From Phycisphaerae bacterium (GTDB taxonomy: Bacteria > Planctomycetota > Phycisphaerae > UBA1845 > UTPLA1): 64,000 bases of DNA. Position numbers and translations under genes: made by a program. Under the pieces are notes generated by a model, which saw nothing but the letters and a program-made list of their open reading frames with translations, had not been told where the DNA came from and did not search any database. Positions within the stretch are counted from its first letter, which is position 1, and every line of letters begins with the position of its first letter. The DNA is taken from positions 1 to 64,000 of the forward strand of contig DATEMU010000003.1 of assembly GCA_035275405.1 (NCBI GenBank), in the 5' to 3' direction. Of the stretch, positions 45,936 through 58,913 are shown one piece after another.

Positions 45936-48900
45936 TCAAGCTCCTTCAATTTGGGTCGCCCTAGGCGACACAGGAACAATGGACGGCTCCGGCCCCACCT
46001 TGACGCCGAACACAAGCGAGTACCCGGCGGGTACAACGACGACGTTCAGAAACGTCGAGGTAATCAGCCCTCCCAGGACGACGATGGCAAGCGGCGCGAG
46101 GAGTTCACTGCCTGGCTCTCCTTTGGCGATGGCCAGCGGGAGCAAACCCAACGCCGCACATAGTGCGGTCATCAGGATGGGCACAAGACGCTCCATCGAG
46201 CCCTGAATGATCGCTTCGCTGAGCGCTTTCGATTCCTGCACAATGAGATGCTGGTAGTGATTAACGAGCAGGATGCCGTTGCGAACCGCGATGCCGAATA
46301 AGGTGACGAAGCCGACCATGCTGGCGATGGAAATGACGGGGGCCTCATACCGCGCACTGGAGAGCCCGAAGAGCGCAAGAGTGTTGCGGAACGGGTTGTC
46401 ACATTCCGTCAGATAGACGGCCACGATTCCGCCGATCAGGGCCAGCGGCAGGTTGACCATCACCAGCAATGCGGCCCGCCATGAGCCGCTGGAGACTTGC
46501 AGCAACAGGAGCATTAACAGGATGACGCCTGCGCCGGCGACGTAAATGGTGCGGGCCGCTGATTGCTGAGCCTCGAACTGACCGCCGTAATGAATCGTGT
46601 AGCCCGCGCCATGCGCGATCGGGTCGATGCGTTGGCGCACGGTCTCCACGATGTCCCCGAGGTTGTAGCCCTCCGCCACGTTGCAGGAGATCACCGCTTT
46701 GCGACGCGCGTTTTCTCGTGCGATGAGATTGGATGTCTGTTCCGGACCGATGGTCGCGACTTCTGCCAGTCGCACGAGCGCGCCGTCCTGTCCGCGGAGC
46801 TGGAGGCGACGGACCTGTTCGATGGTCTGGCGATCCTCGGCGGCGAGTCGGACGACCATGTCGTACCGGCGAATGCCCTGATGCACCTCCGCCACGCGCT
46901 CGCCGTAGAGCGCCTGTTGCACCTGGGTCGCGGCCGAAGCCGGCGTCAAGCCGGCGGCCGCGAGGTCCTCCAGGCGATAGCGCACCGGCAGAGATGTGAT
47001 CATGACTTCCCGCGCCGCATTCACGTCCCGCACCCCCGGGGCCTTGTTTAATTCCGCTTCAACCTGGCGCGCGATCTCGCGAAGTTTCGAAAGATCGTCG
47101 CCGTAGATACTCATGGCGATGGCGGCCGGCGTTCCCGAGAGGATATGTGACAGACGATGTTCGATCGGCTGGCCGACGCTGGTCACGATGGCGGGCACAT
47201 CCTGGAGAATGTCTTGAACATGCCCGCGGACCTCTTCCTTGTCGGCTTCCGGATCAAGGACGACATCGATTTCCGAGTCGCTGGGCGGCTGGGCGTGTTC
47301 ATCACGTTCCGCGCGGCCGGTGCGCCGCGTCACGCTGGTTACGCCGGAAATCGCCGTCAGCCGCGCCTCGATGCCGCGAGCGACGCGGTCGCTTTCGACC
47401 AGGGACGTGCCCGGCGGATTCATCAGGAAGACGGTGAATGTGCCCTCGTTGAATCCGGGCAGAAAACTGGTGCCAAAGGATGAGGCGAGCCACAAGGAGA
47501 GCGCGGTCGCCCCTACCGCAGATGACAGCACCCATTTTCGATGCCGGATCGCATATCGGAGAGAGGGCTCGTAACGTTGCTTGAGCCAGCGGACCAGAAG
47601 GCCGTCGCTTTGACTCCCGACCGCTTCGTCGTCTTCACCCGTACGGCGTCTAAGCAGGAATCGACAGAGCGCCGGCGTCAGGGTCAAAGCCACGACCAGC
47701 GACGCGAGAATCGAGACGATATAGGTGATCCCCAGCGGACGGAAAAAGCGCCCCTCCAGGCCCTGAAGGAACAGCAGCGGAACAAAGACCATGACAATGA
47801 TGATGGTCGCGAACACGACGGCGCTGCGGATTTCATTGCTGGCGTCAAAAATCACCTGAAGATCAGGCCGGCGCTCATCCCTCGGTCGCTGTCTGTTCTC
47901 GCGCAGGCGGCGGTATACATTTTCCACATCGATAATCGCGTCGTCGACGAGTTCACCAATAGCGATAGCCAGCCCACCCAGTGTCATGACGTTGATCGAC
48001 AGGCCCCAGATCCACAGCACGAGCAGCGCCACCGCGATCGAAATCGGCAGCGCGGTCAGGGTGATGATGGTCGTACGGACATTCATCAGGAATAGTACAA
48101 GGATGATGGCCACAATGATCGTGGCGTCACGCAGCACATGCCGGACATTCCGAACCGCGCGATCGATGAAATCAGCCTGCCGGAACACCTTGCGGTTAAG
48201 CACGATTCCTGCCGGGAGACTCTTTTCAATCTCATCCAGCGCACGATCCACGTCTTCCGTGAGCGCCAGCGTGTTGGTGCCCGGCGACTTCTGAATTGTG
48301 AGGACGACGGCCGAGCGCCCCTGGTCGGCTGCGGTGCCTCGCTTGGGTGAAGCACCGAGCACGACCTCGGCCACACTTCCGATCAGGACCGGAGTACCCT
48401 CGTAGTACTTGATGATCGTGCCCTTGATGTCCTCGACGCCCTTGACGCGGGCGGACTGTCGGATGGGCAGCTCGCGGCGCTCGACATTGGGCAGATATCC
48501 CGCGCTCGCTGTGCTGTGCGCCGCCCGCGCGGCCTCCACAACATTCGCAATGGTCAATCCGAAGAGATGCAGCCTGTCCTGGTGAACGTTGATCTGGTAT
48601 TCGGGCAGCTCTCCACCAATGGCCACGACCTGCGAGATCCCGGGAATGGACAGCAGTCGGTTGCGGAGATCGAATTCCGCATAGGCGCGCAGGTCGAGAT
48701 CGTTCACCCGGCCGTCGGGCGACGAAAGCGCCAACAACATGATTTCGCCCGTGATGGAAGTGATGGGCGTGATTTCTGCGTGGGCGTCGGGCGGCAGCGA
48801 CTCACGCACCGCCGCAAGTCGCTCGGTGACGAGCTGCCGCGCACGATAAATGTCCGTCCCCCAGTCAAACTCCACCCACACGAGCGACAGGCCGCCGGCA

Positions 48901-49157
48901 CTGCCGCTGCGCACACGCCGCACGCCCGGCAGGCCGTTGACCGAGGCTTCAATGGGAAAGGTCACATACTGTTCCATCTCGTCGGCCGCCAGGCCGCCGC
49001 TATCGGTCATGATGACGACCGTCGGAGCATTCAGTTCGGGAAAGACATCGACCGGCATCTGAGGAAGGATGTACCCCACGAATGCAAGGAGCAGTCCGCA
49101 TGCGATCAGGACTAGCGTCGAGTACTTAAGGGAGAGGTCGATCAGCTTTGAAAGCAT
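45936..49157 (-). CDS. Heavy-metal-efflux RND pump (system 1), CzcA/CusA-like
   Basis: About 1073 residues from the ATG at 49157 (GGGAGAGGCAG upstream). Twelve membrane helices in two halves with large periplasmic loops. The HME-RND proton-relay motif is GELVDDAIIDVENVYRRLREN near residues 400-412, and the second half has VRNGILLVNHYQHL. The family exports divalent or monovalent heavy metals (Zn/Co/Cd or Cu/Ag) with an adaptor and TolC-like channel. The metal cannot be told from this sequence alone. It forms an operon with the His-rich protein, adaptor and lipoprotein. Confidence 0.93.
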   Translation of the reverse strand: MLSKLIDLSLKYSTLVLIACGLLLAFVGYILPQMPVDVFPELNAPTVVIMTDSGGLAADEMEQYVTFPIEASVNGLPGVRRVRSGSAGGLSLVWVEFDWGTDIYRARQLVTERLAAVRESLPPDAHAEITPITSITGEIMLLALSSPDGRVNDLDLRAYAEFDLRNRLLSIPGISQVVAIGGELPEYQINVHQDRLHLFGLTIANVVEAARAAHSTASAGYLPNVERRELPIRQSARVKGVEDIKGTIIKYYEGTPVLIGSVAEVVLGASPKRGTAADQGRSAVVLTIQKSPGTNTLALTEDVDRALDEIEKSLPAGIVLNRKVFRQADFIDRAVRNVRHVLRDATIIVAIILVLFLMNVRTTIITLTALPISIAVALLVLWIWGLSINVMTLGGLAIAIGELVDDAIIDVENVYRRLRENRQRPRDERRPDLQVIFDASNEIRSAVVFATIIIVMVFVPLLFLQGLEGRFFRPLGITYIVSILASLVVALTLTPALCRFLLRRRTGEDDEAVGSQSDGLLVRWLKQRYEPSLRYAIRHRKWVLSSAVGATALSLWLASSFGTSFLPGFNEGTFTVFLMNPPGTSLVESDRVARGIEARLTAISGVTSVTRRTGRAERDEHAQPPSDSEIDVVLDPEADKEEVRGHVQDILQDVPAIVTSVGQPIEHRLSHILSGTPAAIAMSIYGDDLSKLREIARQVEAELNKAPGVRDVNAAREVMITSLPVRYRLEDLAAAGLTPASAATQVQQALYGERVAEVHQGIRRYDMVVRLAAEDRQTIEQVRRLQLRGQDGALVRLAEVATIGPEQTSNLIARENARRKAVISCNVAEGYNLGDIVETVRQRIDPIAHGAGYTIHYGGQFEAQQSAARTIYVAGAGVILLMLLLLQVSSGSWRAALLVMVNLPLALIGGIVAVYLTECDNPFRNTLALFGLSSARYEAPVISIASMVGFVTLFGIAVRNGILLVNHYQHLIVQESKALSEAIIQGSMERLVPILMTALCAALGLLPLAIAKGEPGSELLAPLAIVVLGGLITSTFLNVVVVPAGYSLVFGVKVGPEPSIVPVSPRATQIEGA

Positions 49158-49251
49158 CTGCCTCTCCCTTTGCCGGGTTGGTTCGAGCAATTCATCCGGT
49201 GCTCCCGACTTTCAAATCCGGCTTCCACGGTCACCTGCGTTTGCAACTTTC

Positions 49252-50679
49252 TCATTCGTTCCCTTCGTGGAAGGTCCCATCAGGATGAAAATGACCGCCC
49301 TTTGGCGACCCGGCCGAGGTGGCCAACATGAGCTGGTAAATGCCATCCAGCACCACTTCGTCTCCTTCGCCCAAACCGCTCAATACCGCGACCCAGCGGT
49401 CGTCACTTACACCAAGATCCGGCTCCATGCGGATGACCTTGTTCGGATCTTTGGGATCGCGTCGAAAAATGATTTTTGACAGGCCGTCCTGAATGACGGC
49501 GCCGGTGGGGATGGCGAGTTCTTCCGTCGATCCGGCAAGCGTCACTTCGAGATAGGCGGTGACGCCGGGTCGTGCCCAATTACTCAGGGATGTTGGCGTG
49601 ACGTAAAGGTCCATCGTCCGCTGCTGCGGATCGGCGGAGATACCGAGCATGAGCTTTCCTTCCATGGTGTCCTGAAGCGCGATGCTGCCACCGCGTGGGG
49701 GAACGACGCGCGCAGGCAGGCCTTCGCTTAGTTGTTGGAGATCGCTTTGCATTCCGTGGGCGTGGAAGCGAATGCGCTCCGGCTGGACTGTTGTGAGCAC
49801 CAGGCTTGTGGCGTCGGCCCATGCCCCGTTGGTCAGCGTAATCGAATCGACGTAGCCCGGCGCGCCGGCGGCGACCTCTACGTGCTCGCGCGTGCGCCAC
49901 ATCGGCGCGGAAGTATCGCCATCTCCGTTTGGCTGTAGCAAGCGGCTCTTCGGGACATCGAGCAAGGTCGCGGCCGACTCGAGCAGCAGGTTAAACCGCG
50001 TTCGCGCGGTATCCAGCCTGGCCTGCACCTCCACGCGCATCACGTTGAGTTCCGCCTCTTTTTCCTTGGTTTCCGCCAATTTGATGTTGGCCTCGGCCAG
50101 CGACACCTGCGCTTGGGCCAGTGCCGCTGCGCTTATGCTGCCGGTTTCCGATCCTTTTGCGAGCTGCGCCGCTCGGGTGGTCAGGATATCGACCTGTCTC
50201 TCGATGCTGCGATGATGTTGTTCATGTGCTTCCCGGAGCGGGCCCATCATCTCAACCCGCTTTTCCGATTCTCGAATCTGCGCTTCGGCCTCGGCGAGTT
50301 TTTGCTGAAGCTCACGCCAGGGCGGAGAATCGAGGCGATACATCGGCGTTCCGAGATCGACGCGCTGAAATTGGCCGACCAGCAACTCGACGCGGCCAGA
50401 AAGCATCGTGCGATATTCCCGCCTGGCGTCCGGCAGGAATTCGAACTTTCCGGGAACACGCAACGTCCTGGCAACGGCCCGCGATTCAACCCTGGCGAAG
50501 GTAATGCCGAGGTTCTTTCGCACCGCGTCGGGAACATCGACGCGGTTGGTGATCGCTGCGCCGCTGCTTCCCGCAGCGGGTATCGTATCGCGCTGCTCCG
50601 CGGGCCCGTCATTCGGAGAGCGATCGCACCCTCCGATGAAACCGGCCGTCGCAAGAACAAGTATCAAAAAATATTGCAT
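49252..50679 (-). CDS. RND efflux periplasmic adaptor (system 1), CzcB/CusB-like lipoprotein
   Basis: About 475 residues. The ATG at 50679 gives a signal peptide with lipobox FIGGC (Cys18). The architecture is a membrane-fusion protein: N-terminal beta strands (ARTLRVPGKFEFLPDAR), a long coiled coil (about 130-240; LQQKLAEAEAQIRESEKRVEMM...), then the lipoyl and beta-barrel parts and a C-terminal tail with GGHFHPDG and HEGNE. It couples the RND pump to an outer-membrane channel. The system-1 channel gene is missing; see the remnant at 51424. Confidence 0.9.
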   Translation of the reverse strand: MQYFLILVLATAGFIGGCDRSPNDGPAEQRDTIPAAGSSGAAITNRVDVPDAVRKNLGITFARVESRAVARTLRVPGKFEFLPDARREYRTMLSGRVELLVGQFQRVDLGTPMYRLDSPPWRELQQKLAEAEAQIRESEKRVEMMGPLREAHEQHHRSIERQVDILTTRAAQLAKGSETGSISAAALAQAQVSLAEANIKLAETKEKEAELNVMRVEVQARLDTARTRFNLLLESAATLLDVPKSRLLQPNGDGDTSAPMWRTREHVEVAAGAPGYVDSITLTNGAWADATSLVLTTVQPERIRFHAHGMQSDLQQLSEGLPARVVPPRGGSIALQDTMEGKLMLGISADPQQRTMDLYVTPTSLSNWARPGVTAYLEVTLAGSTEELAIPTGAVIQDGLSKIIFRRDPKDPNKVIRMEPDLGVSDDRWVAVLSGLGEGDEVVLDGIYQLMLATSAGSPKGGHFHPDGTFHEGNE

Positions 50680-50785
50680 AGGAGCACTTTGATTCCCGCA
50701 CAGGCGGGGCGCTCGTTGAGCGCGAATGCTCAACGATGACGCAAACTAAATCACTTGTTTGTAGTAATGCGCAGGAGGGCAGGAA

Positions 50786-51423: not shown

Positions 51424-51718
51424 CCTCATCCTTGTCGTCGGGACCCTGTCAGCCGGTTGCGCCCGCGTTTCACCGGAGGGGGACGACGAGGACGCCGCCC
51501 GGTTCGTAACCGAGCGAACGGGGGTGGAGTAAGTCTACGATCCAAGCGCGGACGCTGAAGCTGGGCAGGCCGTGAGCGCGCTGCTCGAGGGCGGGCTGAC
51601 CTTGGATGAAGCCGTTCGCGTTGCGCTCCTGAACAACAGAGACTTCCAATCGGTGTTCGCCGAGGTGAGCGGCTTGGGACCTCTGCGGCTCTCATACACC
51701 GCGGCACTCATCATGTAA
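51424..51718 (+). pseudogene. Truncated, nonsense-containing copy of the TolC-like gene
   Basis: The frame beginning LILVVGTLSAGCARVSPEGD is homologous to the N-terminal part of the TolC-like protein at 52836 (shared ARFVTERTGVE and VYDPSADAE, then ALLEGGLT and EAVRVALLNN). A TAA at 51530-51532 replaces the CAG at 52997-52999, and homology ends near 51668, after which the frame runs out at 51718. About 215 bases of similarity remain. It lies between the two RND systems and looks like the vestige of the system-1 channel gene or of a duplication. Confidence 0.85.
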
Positions 51719-52835: not shown

Positions 52836-54380
52836 ATGATTTCACCGACTAGGTTGATGGTCTTGGCCTCACGTCGACTTTTCGAACTCTTTTCGTCGGC
52901 AGCTTTTCTTGCAGTAGCGGGCTGCGCGCGGGTGGCACCGGAGGGGGACTATCAGGAGGCCGCGCGTTTCGTGACCGAGCGAACGGGGGTGGAGCAGGTC
53001 TACGATCCAAGCGCGGACGCTGAAGTCGGGCAGGCCGTGCGCGCGCTGCTCGAGGGCGGGCTGACCCAGGATGAAGCCGTTCGCGTTGCGCTCCTGAACA
53101 ACAAAGACTTCCAATCGCTGTTTGCCGAACTCGGCGCGTCGCGGGCCGACGTGGTGCAGTCCGGGCTCCTGACCAACCCTTCACTTTCACTTCTCGTCCA
53201 ATTCCCCGAAGGGGGAGGGCGCAGCAAGCTGACGTTCGGCTTCGGCCAGCAACTGGTCGACCTGTGGCAAATACCCGTCCGTAAGAACATCGCCGAAGCC
53301 CAGCTCGAGCAGGCCGTGCTCGCGATTGTCCGCCGGGCGGTCGATCTCGCGGCGGACGTGCGCGTGCGCTACAGCCGCCTGGCCGCGCTGCTACGCGCCG
53401 AGGCGATCACCCGCGAGAATCTGCAGCTCGTCGAGCGGTCCCTGCAGCTCGCCCAGGCGCGTTACACCGCGGGCGAGTCGGGTCAGCTCGACGTGTTCCT
53501 GGTTCGGGGGACCCTTCTGGACGTTCAGGTCGCCTTGATCAACCTGGCGCGCGATCGTCGCGTCGCCCTCGCGGACCTGGAGCGGTCGATGGGGTTGACT
53601 CGGTCAACTCAGCGCGTCGAACTCACCGAGGAACTCAAGCCGCCACCGCCCATCGTCTTTGAAGAGTCGGAACTCGTGTCGTTCGCCCTCCACGAGCGGC
53701 TCGATGCGCAATCGGCGGCCGCCCAGGTTCGCGCGGCGGAAGCCGAACTCCGCCGACAATACCTCAACATATTTCCCAGCGTGGTGGCGGGCGCAGAAGT
53801 GGAACGTACGGACCGCCGGTCGCTGCCCGGCAGAGACATCGTCGCCGACACGTTGCGTACATCCATCGCCAATGGTGGACTGACGGCGCCGGAAATTCAG
53901 TCCAAGGACCAGCGCGACCAGGAACGACGACAGATCATCGATTCAATCATCGGGCCGTCCCTGGCCATTACGCTTCCCATTTGGGATCAGAATCAAGCGC
54001 AGATTGCCAAGGCCGATTTCACGGTCCGCCAGCGGCGAAAGTCCTTTGAAGACCTGCTGGACCAGGTGGCGCTGGATGTTCAGCAGTCCAGCGCGGCCAT
54101 GCGGACGGCGCAGGAACTCGTGAGTTTTTATGAGAAAGAGACGCTGCCCCAAGCGCAAAAAAACGTCGACGCCGCCACCCGGAGCTACCAGGCCGGCGAG
54201 CAGAGCGTCGTTGCGCTCATTGAGGCGCAGCGATCCCTGATCGACCAGCGCCGAACTTTCGTCGATATTGTTCGAGACAGCGCAATTGCCAAGGCGGAAT
54301 TGGAACGCGCCGTGGGCGGCCGGCTCCCGCGCAGCGCGACCACGCAGGCGACACCGAACCAGCCGGCGTCGATCGAATAG
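52836..54380 (+). CDS. TolC/CusC-like outer-membrane efflux factor (system 2)
   Basis: About 514 residues. The signal peptide ends with lipobox FLAVAGC (Cys30). Long coiled-coil helices (about 80-260 and 350-500) and the repeated OEP pattern (LLTNPSLSLLVQFPEGG; ATRSYQAGEQSVVALIEAQRS) identify an outer-membrane-factor trimer subunit. It forms the exit duct for the system-2 RND pump. An upstream frame (52737) overlaps the previous gene, so the ATG at 52836 is used. Confidence 0.92.
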   Translation: MISPTRLMVLASRRLFELFSSAAFLAVAGCARVAPEGDYQEAARFVTERTGVEQVYDPSADAEVGQAVRALLEGGLTQDEAVRVALLNNKDFQSLFAELGASRADVVQSGLLTNPSLSLLVQFPEGGGRSKLTFGFGQQLVDLWQIPVRKNIAEAQLEQAVLAIVRRAVDLAADVRVRYSRLAALLRAEAITRENLQLVERSLQLAQARYTAGESGQLDVFLVRGTLLDVQVALINLARDRRVALADLERSMGLTRSTQRVELTEELKPPPPIVFEESELVSFALHERLDAQSAAAQVRAAEAELRRQYLNIFPSVVAGAEVERTDRRSLPGRDIVADTLRTSIANGGLTAPEIQSKDQRDQERRQIIDSIIGPSLAITLPIWDQNQAQIAKADFTVRQRRKSFEDLLDQVALDVQQSSAAMRTAQELVSFYEKETLPQAQKNVDAATRSYQAGEQSVVALIEAQRSLIDQRRTFVDIVRDSAIAKAELERAVGGRLPRSATTQATPNQPASIE

Positions 54381-54402
54381 TAAGAAAGGAAAGGTAGACG
54401 AA

Positions 54403-54510
54403 ATGGACACATCAACGTTCTTCACCGACCTGATTGGCTTGTTTTTTTCCGGTTTCCTCTCCTTCGGTCTCGACTTTATTCTGCAGTTCCTCGCTGCGTT
54501 TCTCGTCTAA
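54403..54510 (+). CDS. 35-residue hydrophobic microprotein
   Basis: An ATG at 54403, preceded by AAAGGAAAGGTAGACGA, opens a 35-codon frame ending at 54510. The product has a short polar N-terminus (MDTSTFF) and one almost continuous hydrophobic stretch containing LIGLFFSGFLSFGLDFILQF and ending in FLAAFLV. It sits between the outer-membrane-factor and adaptor genes, 9 bases before the latter. Its placement suggests a small RND-associated subunit (compare AcrZ-like microproteins), but this is inference. Confidence 0.7.
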   Translation: MDTSTFFTDLIGLFFSGFLSFGLDFILQFLAAFLV

Positions 54511-54519
54511 GGCGGCGGA

Positions 54520-55755
54520 ATGACTCGCGACGTTTTACGATGGTTCGTGTTGGCGATCACGCTCGGGCTGTCGATTCCAGGCTGCTCACCTGACGACGAC
54601 GAGGAGGAAGCGGGCGAGACGCACCACGCGGAATCACAGCCCGTCGCGCGCAACGAACGCGGCGAGACCGTGGTTACGCTCGACGTTGAGGACCAGAAAA
54701 ACGCGGGAATCGTCACTCAGCCTCTCGTCGCCGGCGCCTTGCAGCCGGAATTGACCGCCTACGGCCGCCTCGAAGAGGACCCCTCGCAATCGTTCACCCT
54801 TCGGGCCCCGGTCGCCGGGATGGTCAAACCGCCCGACTCCGGCACGTGGCCCCGCCTCGGACAGACTCAGGAGGACGGCGTCCTTATCGGCCGAATTGAG
54901 CCTCGGCTCAGCCCCGTGGAGCGGGCGGACCTTGCGTCGCGCCTCTCCGCGGCCCACGGCGAAATGGAGGAAGTTTCTGCGGAACTGTCGGCGGCGCAGG
55001 CGTCGTACGAAAGTAAGAAGCAGCTTAACATCCAGGGCCATATTGTCTCCGACCGAGCCATGGAAGAGGCAGAAGCCAGGGTCAAAGGGGCCGAGGCGCG
55101 CCTGAAAACGGCGGTGGAGACCATTCGACTGATTGAGGCGTCGCTTACCGCTACATCGGGACCAACGGAGCCCCTCGTATTGCGCCTGGTGTCCGGCGGT
55201 GAGGTCGTCGAAGTGGGCGCGCAGCCCGGCGAGTCGCTCGAGGCCGGACAGACCATCCTTCGCGTTGCGCGATACGACCGACTGCTGGCGCGGGTGGAAT
55301 TGCCTGTTGGCGAATTCGTCAGGCCTCCGCCAAGACACGCGCGGGTCGTGGTGGTGGGCCGCGACGAGCGCCCCTGGCAAGCCCAGGCCGCTGCGATCGC
55401 GCCGGCGATCAATCCGCTCACGGGCGGAGAGGCGTTCCTGTTTCTATTCACTTCGGACGATCCAACGCTACGCCCCGGATTGGCGATCGTCGCCTACATT
55501 GCACTGACCGGCGAAGCACAAAAAGGCGCGATCATCCCACGATCAGCGGTGGTGCGTCTCGAGGGCGGCACTTGGATTTATGTAAAAAGCGGCGAACAAG
55601 AGTTTACGCGACGCGCGGTAAACGACTTGCGCCCCACTGAGGCAGGGTGGTTCGCCGCCGGCCTCGATCCGGATCAAATCGTCGTGGTCACCGGGGCGCA
55701 GGCGCTTCTTTCAACGGAGTTCACTTCCCGCGCGGTAGAAGAGGAAGAAGAATGA
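54520..55755 (+). CDS. RND efflux periplasmic adaptor (system 2) lipoprotein
   Basis: 411 residues. Signal peptide with lipobox LSIPGC (Cys22), an acidic linker (PDDDEEEAGETHH), a hydrophobic beta domain, a coiled coil (about 120-210; ADLASRLSAAHGEMEEVSAEL) and a lipoyl/barrel region (SGGEVVEVGAQPGESLEAGQ). This is a membrane-fusion protein of the CusB/CzcB type; it joins the RND pump to the TolC-like factor. 9 bases after the microprotein gene. Confidence 0.9.
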   Translation: MTRDVLRWFVLAITLGLSIPGCSPDDDEEEAGETHHAESQPVARNERGETVVTLDVEDQKNAGIVTQPLVAGALQPELTAYGRLEEDPSQSFTLRAPVAGMVKPPDSGTWPRLGQTQEDGVLIGRIEPRLSPVERADLASRLSAAHGEMEEVSAELSAAQASYESKKQLNIQGHIVSDRAMEEAEARVKGAEARLKTAVETIRLIEASLTATSGPTEPLVLRLVSGGEVVEVGAQPGESLEAGQTILRVARYDRLLARVELPVGEFVRPPPRHARVVVVGRDERPWQAQAAAIAPAINPLTGGEAFLFLFTSDDPTLRPGLAIVAYIALTGEAQKGAIIPRSAVVRLEGGTWIYVKSGEQEFTRRAVNDLRPTEAGWFAAGLDPDQIVVVTGAQALLSTEFTSRAVEEEEE

Positions 55756-55817: not shown

Positions 55818-58800
55818 ATGCTCAGCAAGATCGTCGATTTCTCGATTCGCTTCCGCGTCGTTGTCGTCGCCCTCGCCGCGCTTTTGGTCGCTTACGGCGT
55901 TTATGTCGCCTACCACGCCAAGCTCGATGTCTTTCCCGACTTCGTTTCGCCGCAGGCCTCGATCCAAACCGAAGCGCCCGGCCTTTCCGCCGAGCAGGTC
56001 GAGGCGCTGGTCACGCGGCCCGTGGAAAGTGCGCTTTCCGGCGTTTCCAGTCTCGAATCGATCCGTTCGCAGTCGATCCAGGGCCTTTCGGTCATCACGG
56101 TGTATTTCCGCGAAGGGACGGAAATCTTCGTCGCCCGACAGATGCTCAATGAACGGCTCAGCGAAATCCGCGCCCTGCCTGCGGGCGTTCAAACGCCGAG
56201 GCTACGTCCGATCACCTCTTCGACGATGGACCTGCTCAAAATCGGATTGGTCTGCGACAAGCTCACGCCAATGGAATTGCGCACTTTTGCAGATTGGACG
56301 GTCAAGCCCCGCCTGCTTGCGGTGCAAGGTGTAGCCGGCATCAGCATCTATGGCGGAGACGTTCGCCAACTGCAGATTCGCGTTCGCCCCGATCGGCTGG
56401 CGGCCTTCAATCTTTCCTTGGACGACGTCCTGGCGGCCGCGCGAAACTCCACGGGCGTCCGCGGGGCGGGTTTTGCCGAGACGCCGGCCCAGCGAATCCC
56501 CATCCAGACGGAAGGTCAATCGCTGACGCCCGAGCAGCTCGGCGAAGTTGTGGTCCGCCGCGATCGCGGTGTGAGCCTCCGCCTCAAGGACGTCGCCGAT
56601 GTGGTCGTCGGTGCGGAGCCTAAGTTTGGCGACTGCGTCATCATGGGACGTTCCGGCGTACTCCTCACCATGTTGAGCCAGTATGGGGCCAACACCATGG
56701 AAGTGACTCGGGCGGTCGAGGCGGCGCTGGAGGAGATGAAACCCGCCTTAGCCGCCCAGGGCATTACGCTCTATCCGCGACTGCACCGGCCGGCTACCTT
56801 CATCGAGACGGCGATCGGCCACATGCGTTTTTCGCTGCTCTTGGGCGGCATCCTCGTGGCGGCCGTGCTGTTTCTATTCCTGTTCAACCTCCGGGCCGCC
56901 TTCATTTCGCTGACGGCCATACCGCTGTCGCTTTTGGTTGCCGTCATCATCCTCGATTACTTCGGCGTGACGCTCAATACAATCACCCTTGGCGGCCTGG
57001 CGATCGCCATCGGCGAGGTCGTTGACGATGCGATCATCGATGTGGAGAACATCCTCCGGCGGCTCCGCGAAAATGCTGCGGGCCCCCAGCCCCGCTCACC
57101 GCTCGCCGTTGTATTTCAGGCTTCGCTTGAAGTCCGCAGCGCCGTCGTCTATGCCACCTTCGTCGTGGCGCTCGTTTTCCTTCCGGTCCTGACGATGTCC
57201 GGCCTGCAAGGCCGGCTCTTCGCACCGCTCGGTGCGGCCTACATCCTGGCGATCGCGGCCTCGCTCGTGGTCGCACTCACACTGACGCCCGCGCTTTCCC
57301 TTTTGTTGTTGCCGCAGCGCGCCGACCGAGCCGTCGAACCGGCCTTCATCGAACGGCTCAAGGAGCGCTATCGCCGGCTGTTGGCGCGAATCGGCGGCAG
57401 ACCGCGAATGGTCATCGTCTCTAGCGCTATTCTGTGTGTGCTTGCGGCCGGCCTCTTTTTCAGCCTCGGCGGCGAATTCCTGCCCGAGTTTCGCGAGGGG
57501 CACTTTGTCTGCCAGGTCTCGGGACTTCCCGGCACCTCACTCCCCGAGATGATGCGGATCGGCAAACAGGCCACCAATGAGCTGCTCAAATTGCCGGAGA
57601 TAGACACCGTCGAACAGCAGGTCGGCCGGGCTGAACTCGGCGAGGACCCCTGGGGTCCCCATCGCAGTGAGTTACACATCGAATTGAAGCCCACCACCGG
57701 AAAAAGACAGGATTTGGTGCAGAACGAAATACGCGAGGTCCTGTCCAAGATCCCCGGAATCAATTTCGAGGTCCTTACGTTCCTGGGAGATCGCATCAGC
57801 GAGACGATCACCGGTGAGACGTCGTCCGTTGTGGTGAGCCTCTTCGGTGACGATCTCGACGTGCTCGACGCCAACGCAGAGGAAGTCGCGCGCGTCCTCT
57901 CGAGTGTTCGCGGGGCCGTCGATGTCCGCGTCTCGGCCCCGCCGGGGATTCCCCAGACGATCGTGCAGCTTCGCCCGGACCGGCTTCGGCAATTCGGCTT
58001 TCAGCCGGTCGGCGTCCTGGACGCGCTCCAGACTGCCTATCAGGGAACGACGACGGCACAAGTGTACGAAGGCAATCGCGTCTTCGATGTCGTGGTCATC
58101 ATGGACCCGTCGCTGCGGCAGGATCCCGAGCAATTGGGCTCGTTTCTGTTGCGCAACAGCGAAGGCGCGATGTTGCGTTTGGATCAGCTCGCGGACGTCA
58201 CTCTCGTGTCGGGCCGCTTTATGATCCTGCACGATGATGCCCGTCGCCGGCAGACGATTACTTGTAACATCGAGGGCCGCGACCTCGCCTCGTTCGTTGG
58301 GGAAGCCAAGGCGGCCGCCGCGAAGCTCCATTTCCCACCTGGAGTTTATGCCCAGTTCGGCGGCACGGCGGAATTGCGCGAACAAGCGCAGAGCGAACTT
58401 CTGCTCCATTCCGGCCTCGCCGGTCTCGGCATACTGATCTTGCTCTGGGCGGTCTTCCGCAATGGGCGCAACCTGTTACTGGTCTTGGCCAACTTGCCGT
58501 TCGCCCTCGTCGGTGGAGTCCTGGCGGCCTTCGTGACCGGCGGCAATCTATCGCTGGGATCGCTCGTGGGGTTTGTTACGCTCTTCGGTATCAGCACGCG
58601 AAACTCCATCATGATGATTTCGCACTTCGAGCACCTTGTCACTGTCGAAGGACAGCCTTGGTCGTTCAATACCGCACTTCGCGGCGCCTCGGAGCGCGTT
58701 CTCCCGGTAGTGATGACGGCCTTGGTCACCGGACTGGGACTGCTGCCCATCGCGCTCGGGACAGGAGAACCCGGCCGAGAAATAGAAGGGCCAATGGCCG

Positions 58801-58913
58801 TCGTGATCCTGGGCGGGTTGATTACTTCAACCATCCTTAATCTGCTCGTCCTTCCCACCCTCGCCATTCAATTTGGGTCGTTTCGCCAACAACCGGCGGA
58901 TGCTCGGCCATAA
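55818..58913 (+). CDS. Heavy-metal-efflux RND pump (system 2), CzcA/CusA-like
   Basis: 1031 residues. Twelve-helix RND layout with the HME motif GEVVDDAIIDVENILRRLREN near residue 398 and a second-half helix FGISTRNSIMMISHFEHL. Shares the motif with system 1 but is about 40 residues shorter. It probably exports a heavy metal; the specificity is unknown. It ends the plus-strand operon that starts at 51887. Confidence 0.93.
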   Translation: MLSKIVDFSIRFRVVVVALAALLVAYGVYVAYHAKLDVFPDFVSPQASIQTEAPGLSAEQVEALVTRPVESALSGVSSLESIRSQSIQGLSVITVYFREGTEIFVARQMLNERLSEIRALPAGVQTPRLRPITSSTMDLLKIGLVCDKLTPMELRTFADWTVKPRLLAVQGVAGISIYGGDVRQLQIRVRPDRLAAFNLSLDDVLAAARNSTGVRGAGFAETPAQRIPIQTEGQSLTPEQLGEVVVRRDRGVSLRLKDVADVVVGAEPKFGDCVIMGRSGVLLTMLSQYGANTMEVTRAVEAALEEMKPALAAQGITLYPRLHRPATFIETAIGHMRFSLLLGGILVAAVLFLFLFNLRAAFISLTAIPLSLLVAVIILDYFGVTLNTITLGGLAIAIGEVVDDAIIDVENILRRLRENAAGPQPRSPLAVVFQASLEVRSAVVYATFVVALVFLPVLTMSGLQGRLFAPLGAAYILAIAASLVVALTLTPALSLLLLPQRADRAVEPAFIERLKERYRRLLARIGGRPRMVIVSSAILCVLAAGLFFSLGGEFLPEFREGHFVCQVSGLPGTSLPEMMRIGKQATNELLKLPEIDTVEQQVGRAELGEDPWGPHRSELHIELKPTTGKRQDLVQNEIREVLSKIPGINFEVLTFLGDRISETITGETSSVVVSLFGDDLDVLDANAEEVARVLSSVRGAVDVRVSAPPGIPQTIVQLRPDRLRQFGFQPVGVLDALQTAYQGTTTAQVYEGNRVFDVVVIMDPSLRQDPEQLGSFLLRNSEGAMLRLDQLADVTLVSGRFMILHDDARRRQTITCNIEGRDLASFVGEAKAAAAKLHFPPGVYAQFGGTAELREQAQSELLLHSGLAGLGILILLWAVFRNGRNLLLVLANLPFALVGGVLAAFVTGGNLSLGSLVGFVTLFGISTRNSIMMISHFEHLVTVEGQPWSFNTALRGASERVLPVVMTALVTGLGLLPIALGTGEPGREIEGPMAVVILGGLITSTILNLLVLPTLAIQFGSFRQQPADARP

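Follow-up and report, generated by a model that had tools for sequence, protein, structure and literature searches.

Does the 35-codon open reading frame that separates the genes for the outer-membrane factor (OMF) and the adaptor in a Phycisphaerae RND operon encode a protein, and if so, which component of the efflux machinery does that protein serve? The window analysed here is a DNA stretch of 64,000 nucleotides, and the features of the operon are collected in Table 1. The preliminary description of this locus had placed a short, easily missed gene with a good ribosome-binding site inside an RND operon, and had likened its product, in size and hydrophobicity only, to AcrZ-type regulators of the pump.

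Table 1 Features of the operon in the window
Feature	Position	Strand	Evidence
OMF gene, TolC/OprM/CusC fold, PF02321; proposed partner	52836..54380	+	Pfam, alignment, AlphaFold2, Foldseek
Predicted extracellular loop formed by the insert in beta-hairpin 2 of the OMF (TDRRSLPGRDIVADTLRTSIANGGLTAPEIQSKDQRDQERRQIID; mature residues ~295-341)	53805..53945	+	
Shine-Dalgarno-like AAGGAAAGG	54386..54394	+	8 nt upstream of the microprotein ATG; from sequence
OMF-coupled microprotein of 35 aa with C-terminal motif SFGLDFILQFLAAFLV; the short form, not a lipoprotein	54403..54510	+	ORF, leave-one-out profile, relatives
Periplasmic adaptor (HlyD/CusB type)	54520..55755	+	Pfam, NCBIfam
CusA/CzcA-family heavy-metal RND permease	55818..58913	+	TIGR00914 above cut-off

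The translation signals and the operon setting bear out the preliminary description. The ORF (ATG at 54403, TAA at 54508-54510; MDTSTFFTDLIGLFFSGFLSFGLDFILQFLAAFLV) starts 22 nt 3' of the OMF stop and is preceded by the Shine-Dalgarno-like element of Table 1, and the ATG of the adaptor follows 9 nt after its end. Pfam and NCBIfam upheld the OMF, adaptor and RND annotations, with PF02321 matching the OMF over two stretches (E 8.3e-39). The AlphaFold2 model of the OMF (pLDDT 83.8) matches CusC, OprM and SilC in Foldseek (CusC, E 1.4e-15), and the OMF has a lipobox cysteine of its own at 52923. Upstream of the operon, a 213-bp segment (51451-51663) shares 89% identity with the 5' portion of the OMF gene (52916-53128) and contains an in-frame stop; it is a decayed partial duplicate of the start of that gene. 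A second RND permease and adaptor adjoin the operon on the minus strand (45936-50733), and no OMF gene was seen beside this pair.

A search with the 35-aa protein alone gave only weak matches (E 0.02-1), because the family is short and divergent. Homologues were instead reached via the adaptor, by reading the OMF-adaptor space of related genomes for small ORFs. A small ORF occupies the equivalent site in seven genomes from the window's family and order; all of these ORFs share a C-terminal motif, and several start with a signal peptide and lipobox. The nearest relatives of the window copy are only ~30-40% identical to it. Between close relatives in the family, pN/pS is 0.1-0.6, indicating purifying selection, with exact values that lean low because the pairs were picked by amino-acid identity. 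A full-length profile (A1) drew in unrelated lipoprotein signal peptides at weak E-values, and therefore a C-terminal profile (A2) was used instead. With a profile built without the window sequence, the window microprotein scored 17.9 bits, whereas none of 20,000 composition-preserving shuffles exceeded 13.0 bits; the microprotein was also the sole C-end-anchored match among the 1,429 stop-terminated segments of the window. Our computational results show that the ORF is a real, conserved coding gene. The outcome that the preliminary description had named as fatal, a lack of conservation in relatives, clearly failed to materialise, since homologous small ORFs occupy the same position in related genomes. 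Its remark that such genes escape notice also holds: the gene is genuine, and its product matches no family in Pfam or NCBIfam.

The microproteins form a family of very small proteins that are predicted to be held by a membrane helix or a lipid. The family is new, in that our literature searches found no account of one like it. All members end in the motif LxxFxxDFxRQxLAA[FW]L[LF]-stop. The 48 distinct C-termini give the consensus Lx[TAG]FxxDFxRQxLAA[FW]L[LF]-stop, with an invariant Ala at -4 and a constant stop position. The window copy follows the pattern LxxFxxDFxRQxLAAxL[LF]-stop except at -9, where it has Leu and 43 of 48 relatives have Arg; Lys and Arg are both absent from it. Members range from 32 to 70 aa. 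Most are lipoproteins of 50-70 aa with a signal peptide, lipobox and linker (a lipobox-like site is found in 43 of 53 genes), from which a mature lipopeptide of roughly 25-45 residues is estimated. A minority of 32-40 aa, including the window copy, has neither signal peptide nor lipobox. AlphaFold2 predicts the window microprotein as one helix over residues 3-34 (pLDDT 89.9).

In the genomes sampled, the family is confined to a single order. Among a class sample of 298 genomes, 39 match, and all 39 belong to the Phycisphaerae order of the window, which includes MAG UBA1845. Across 392 genomes of the phylum, no convincing family match was found outside the window's own genome. Genomes of the order carry several copies in the profile search. 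On a tree of 94 OMFs, every main branch includes OMFs with the microprotein gene, absences recur, and the short form has more than one origin. The sister OMFs L149 and L153 differ in this respect, the former having the lipoprotein form and the latter the short form; thus lipidation can be replaced and the C-terminal helix cannot. A record named 'Nevskiales bacterium PRO7' (L175, L189) has OMF genes of the Phycisphaerae type together with microprotein genes and nests within the window's order on the tree; it is probably a mislabelled MAG.

We then analyzed where the gene stands. Of the 49 loci mapped, 44 have it immediately behind an OMF gene, and this OMF-first arrangement holds in different layouts: operons of the order OMF, microprotein, adaptor and RND permease, and operons that end in the OMF and microprotein genes. 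At three loci (L088, L097 and L099) no same-strand pump gene follows the pair. Five loci lack an OMF gene directly upstream (L089, L092, L103, L112 and L120). At L092, L120 and L089, the microprotein gene sits beside adaptor or RND genes. The window's own genome holds three copies, each behind a different OMF gene, so that three of its five PF02321 genes are accompanied by a microprotein gene; the third copy is more diverged and was recovered later by the profile. In this genome three further OMF genes are clustered (G000:C3:866000-899000), two with a microprotein gene and the third followed by an ORF resembling multicopper oxidase. Five near-complete relatives have the gene at 12 of 15 OMF genes.

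An independent set, obtained by scanning named genomes, comprised 80 OMF loci. The C-end-anchored HMM found the gene behind the OMF in 53 of them and inspection by eye added two, so that 55 of the 77 OMF genes with enough downstream sequence carry it. The best of 1,369 control segments reached -1.5 bits. Screening the loci of gene-less OMFs for copies elsewhere yielded none, and no second match occurred in the loci. The start of the microprotein gene overlaps the OMF stop in 25 of 53 cases (-4/-1) and follows within 0-30 nt in another 24. With this geometry, translation of the gene would coincide with that of the OMF or closely follow it, in many cases from a start that overlaps the OMF stop, so that both would be produced together. 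Because the gene follows the OMF gene whatever the layout of the pump genes, its partner is probably the OMF rather than the RND pump.

The OMFs in question differ from their structural relatives in one region. They share the fold of CusC, OprM and SilC, but the planctomycete proteins have a conserved insert of ~47 residues in beta-hairpin 2, where OprM has ~25 residues. In the AlphaFold2 model the insert lies between strands 286-294 and 342-350, and the loop itself is modelled with low confidence in the monomer (pLDDT 44-60). By homology with TolC, the hairpin-2 loop is predicted to be extracellular. The OMF alignment gives the insert consensus ERxERRALPGRxILADTARASIAAGxLTAPxIQSRGQRxxERRQxID.

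The presence of the microprotein gene follows this loop. Measured in the alignment from the conserved ER to GP, a span that includes the insert, the stretch is 48-53 residues long in every one of the 68 gene-bearing OMFs, and also in 12 of the 26 without the gene; in the other gene-less OMFs it is deleted (L230, L232 and L235), truncated or altered. Controlling for overall divergence, we measured an identity of the loop to its consensus of 0.82 with the gene versus 0.49 without, whereas the remainder of the OMF is equal (0.67 and 0.69, respectively). In a sliding conservation scan, only mature residues ~264-360 track gene presence, and windows away from them give p>0.5. L230 and L232 are nested in gene-bearing clades and have lost both loop and gene. 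Related OMFs elsewhere in the phylum, found via the LPIFDQNQAQ motif, have neither the insert nor the microprotein gene; loop and microprotein are both order-specific. Among independent tree pairs, 4-6 changed loop and gene in the same way and none in the opposite way (p ~0.06-0.13, with presence scored in the neighbourhood only). The window OMF (L124) has a loop within 48-53 aa, and its microprotein gene lies directly behind a gene with an intact insert. At L157 the loop is intact and the microprotein gene is displaced within the cluster. An intact insert with no microprotein gene found nearby was seen at L176, L199, L209, L212, L226 and L151; a diverged or unlinked microprotein copy is possible for gene-less OMFs of this kind.

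We then propose a model for the microprotein, in which it serves as a dedicated subunit or assembly factor of OMF hairpin 2 in this Phycisphaerae order. We favour this reading with some confidence. Production together with the OMF, occurrence only with the insert and a helix with one conserved face would all point to a dedicated partner of hairpin 2. The computed properties behind the model are the conserved coding gene, its position behind the OMF gene, the geometry of the coupling, the restriction to one order and the dependence on the OMF loop; from these we infer physical binding, membrane placement and an assembly or stabilising role. The microprotein and the lipidated TolC-like OMF would be co-produced, with the microprotein dedicated to this OMF subfamily. 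The product would form one hydrophobic helix, conserved along one face (F-15, D-12/F-11, Q-8, A-4 and L/F-1). Most members would be anchored at the N-terminus by a lipid attached to a cleaved Cys, and in the short form, as in the window, a longer hydrophobic helix would hold the protein instead. The conserved helix may then pack on beta-hairpin 2 and the ~47-residue loop insert. It could either help the large, charged loop and its strands to assemble across the outer membrane, or remain attached to the OMF, a small subunit that would keep the loop ordered above the exit of the channel. The short form is seemingly confined to a membrane and has no export signal, which would fit an assembly role at the inner membrane better; the lipoprotein form is compatible with either a transient assembly role or a lasting subunit.

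Four findings count against a role at the OMF hairpin. No microprotein gene lies near twelve of the OMFs whose loop is intact, five loci of the family have no OMF upstream (three of them adjoining adaptor or RND genes), the independent tree pairs that link loop and gene are few (the 4-6 given above), and the short form has no signal peptide while its target loop would be at the outer membrane.

It is tempting to speculate further that the channel includes the peptide as a stoichiometric, alpha-helical subunit, whose conserved C-terminal helix would span the outer membrane next to the barrel trimer and whose C-terminus would order the inserted extracellular loops as a lid or gate. The anchor would then be the lipid or the N-terminal helix, and insert and peptide would have arisen together in this lineage and been lost together. 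We regard this more specific picture as tentative in all its parts. If true, it would be the first peptide partner dedicated to a surface loop of an OMF.

Another possible explanation takes up the comparison made in the preliminary description: the protein would be an AcrZ-like regulator in the inner membrane, bound to the transmembrane region of the RND permease and modulating the export of substrates. AcrZ of E. coli AcrAB-TolC binds the inner-membrane permease AcrB, as described in PMC7267776, and provides a precedent. Both are very small hydrophobic proteins tied to an RND tripartite pump, RND operons make up most of the loci, the three loci mentioned above retain the gene beside adaptor or RND genes without an OMF, and the predicted helix of the short form (residues 3-34, pLDDT 90) is in keeping with such a role. 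The likeness in size and hydrophobicity thus stands, although a single hydrophobic helix is not specific to AcrZ. The regulatory role is not supported. The window protein and six relatives matched no family in Pfam or NCBIfam, AcrZ included (E up to 0.001-1). The gene tracks the OMF gene and not the permease gene, even at operon ends and where no same-strand pump follows; most members are lipoproteins with another conserved motif, and gene presence follows the OMF loop. Together, these results make a regulator of the RND pump unlikely.

We consider it similarly improbable that the protein is an accessory of the whole pump, such as a peptide that senses metal or envelope stress for the tripartite complex, and was placed behind the OMF by happenstance. 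The operons are mainly of the heavy-metal RND type, with HMBD domains and P-type ATPases nearby, as such an accessory would suggest. However, the conserved C-terminus has no metal ligands, and the specific link to the OMF loop would be unexpected.

A role as supplier of a lipid anchor, giving the OMF an acyl anchor that it lacks, as proposed for YbjP on TolC, is very unlikely. YbjP is a lipoprotein partner of the E. coli outer-membrane channel TolC (PMC13082787, PMC13095208, PMC13016604); it has a globular DUF3828 domain and in some Enterobacterales lies on the periplasmic surface of a non-lipidated TolC (PMC13082787). It is thus a precedent for lipoprotein partners of OMFs (PMC13082787), most microproteins have a lipobox, and YbjP may be the nearest functional parallel, as both would partner an outer-membrane channel. 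However, the mature microprotein is one short helix, the 35-70-aa proteins have no Pfam match and hence no DUF3828 domain, and the microprotein and OMF genes are coupled, with a link to the hairpin-2 loop of the OMF. The OMF itself is lipidated: its lipobox Cys is invariant in the alignments. We also considered complementarity, with a microprotein lipid only where the OMF is unlipidated, and ruled it out, as all these OMFs have a lipobox. In addition, the lipid-free short form, to which the window copy belongs, replaces the lipid form even between the sister OMFs L149 and L153, and the authors of PMC13082787 report that even YbjP is not required as a substitute for absent lipidation.

Finally, a chance ORF or non-coding translational spacer between the OMF and adaptor genes, which the shortness of the window copy and its low identity to its closest relatives might suggest, is hardly credible for the window and is refuted at the family level by the motif exactly at the C-terminus, purifying selection, the lipobox forms and the control searches.

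Accessory proteins of tripartite efflux pumps are still coming to light, with AcrZ (for the permease) and YbjP (for TolC) as the models. The family described here is lineage-wide, operon-encoded and unannotated, with genes short enough for routine annotation to overlook and products that match nothing in the libraries searched (Pfam and NCBIfam), and it points to a specific part of the exit channel. The dedicated OMF partner that we propose offers a direct test of whether extracellular loops of OMFs depend on a partner of their own to assemble or to gate the channel. Since lipid-anchored and purely hydrophobic forms both occur naturally, the family could separate anchoring from function.
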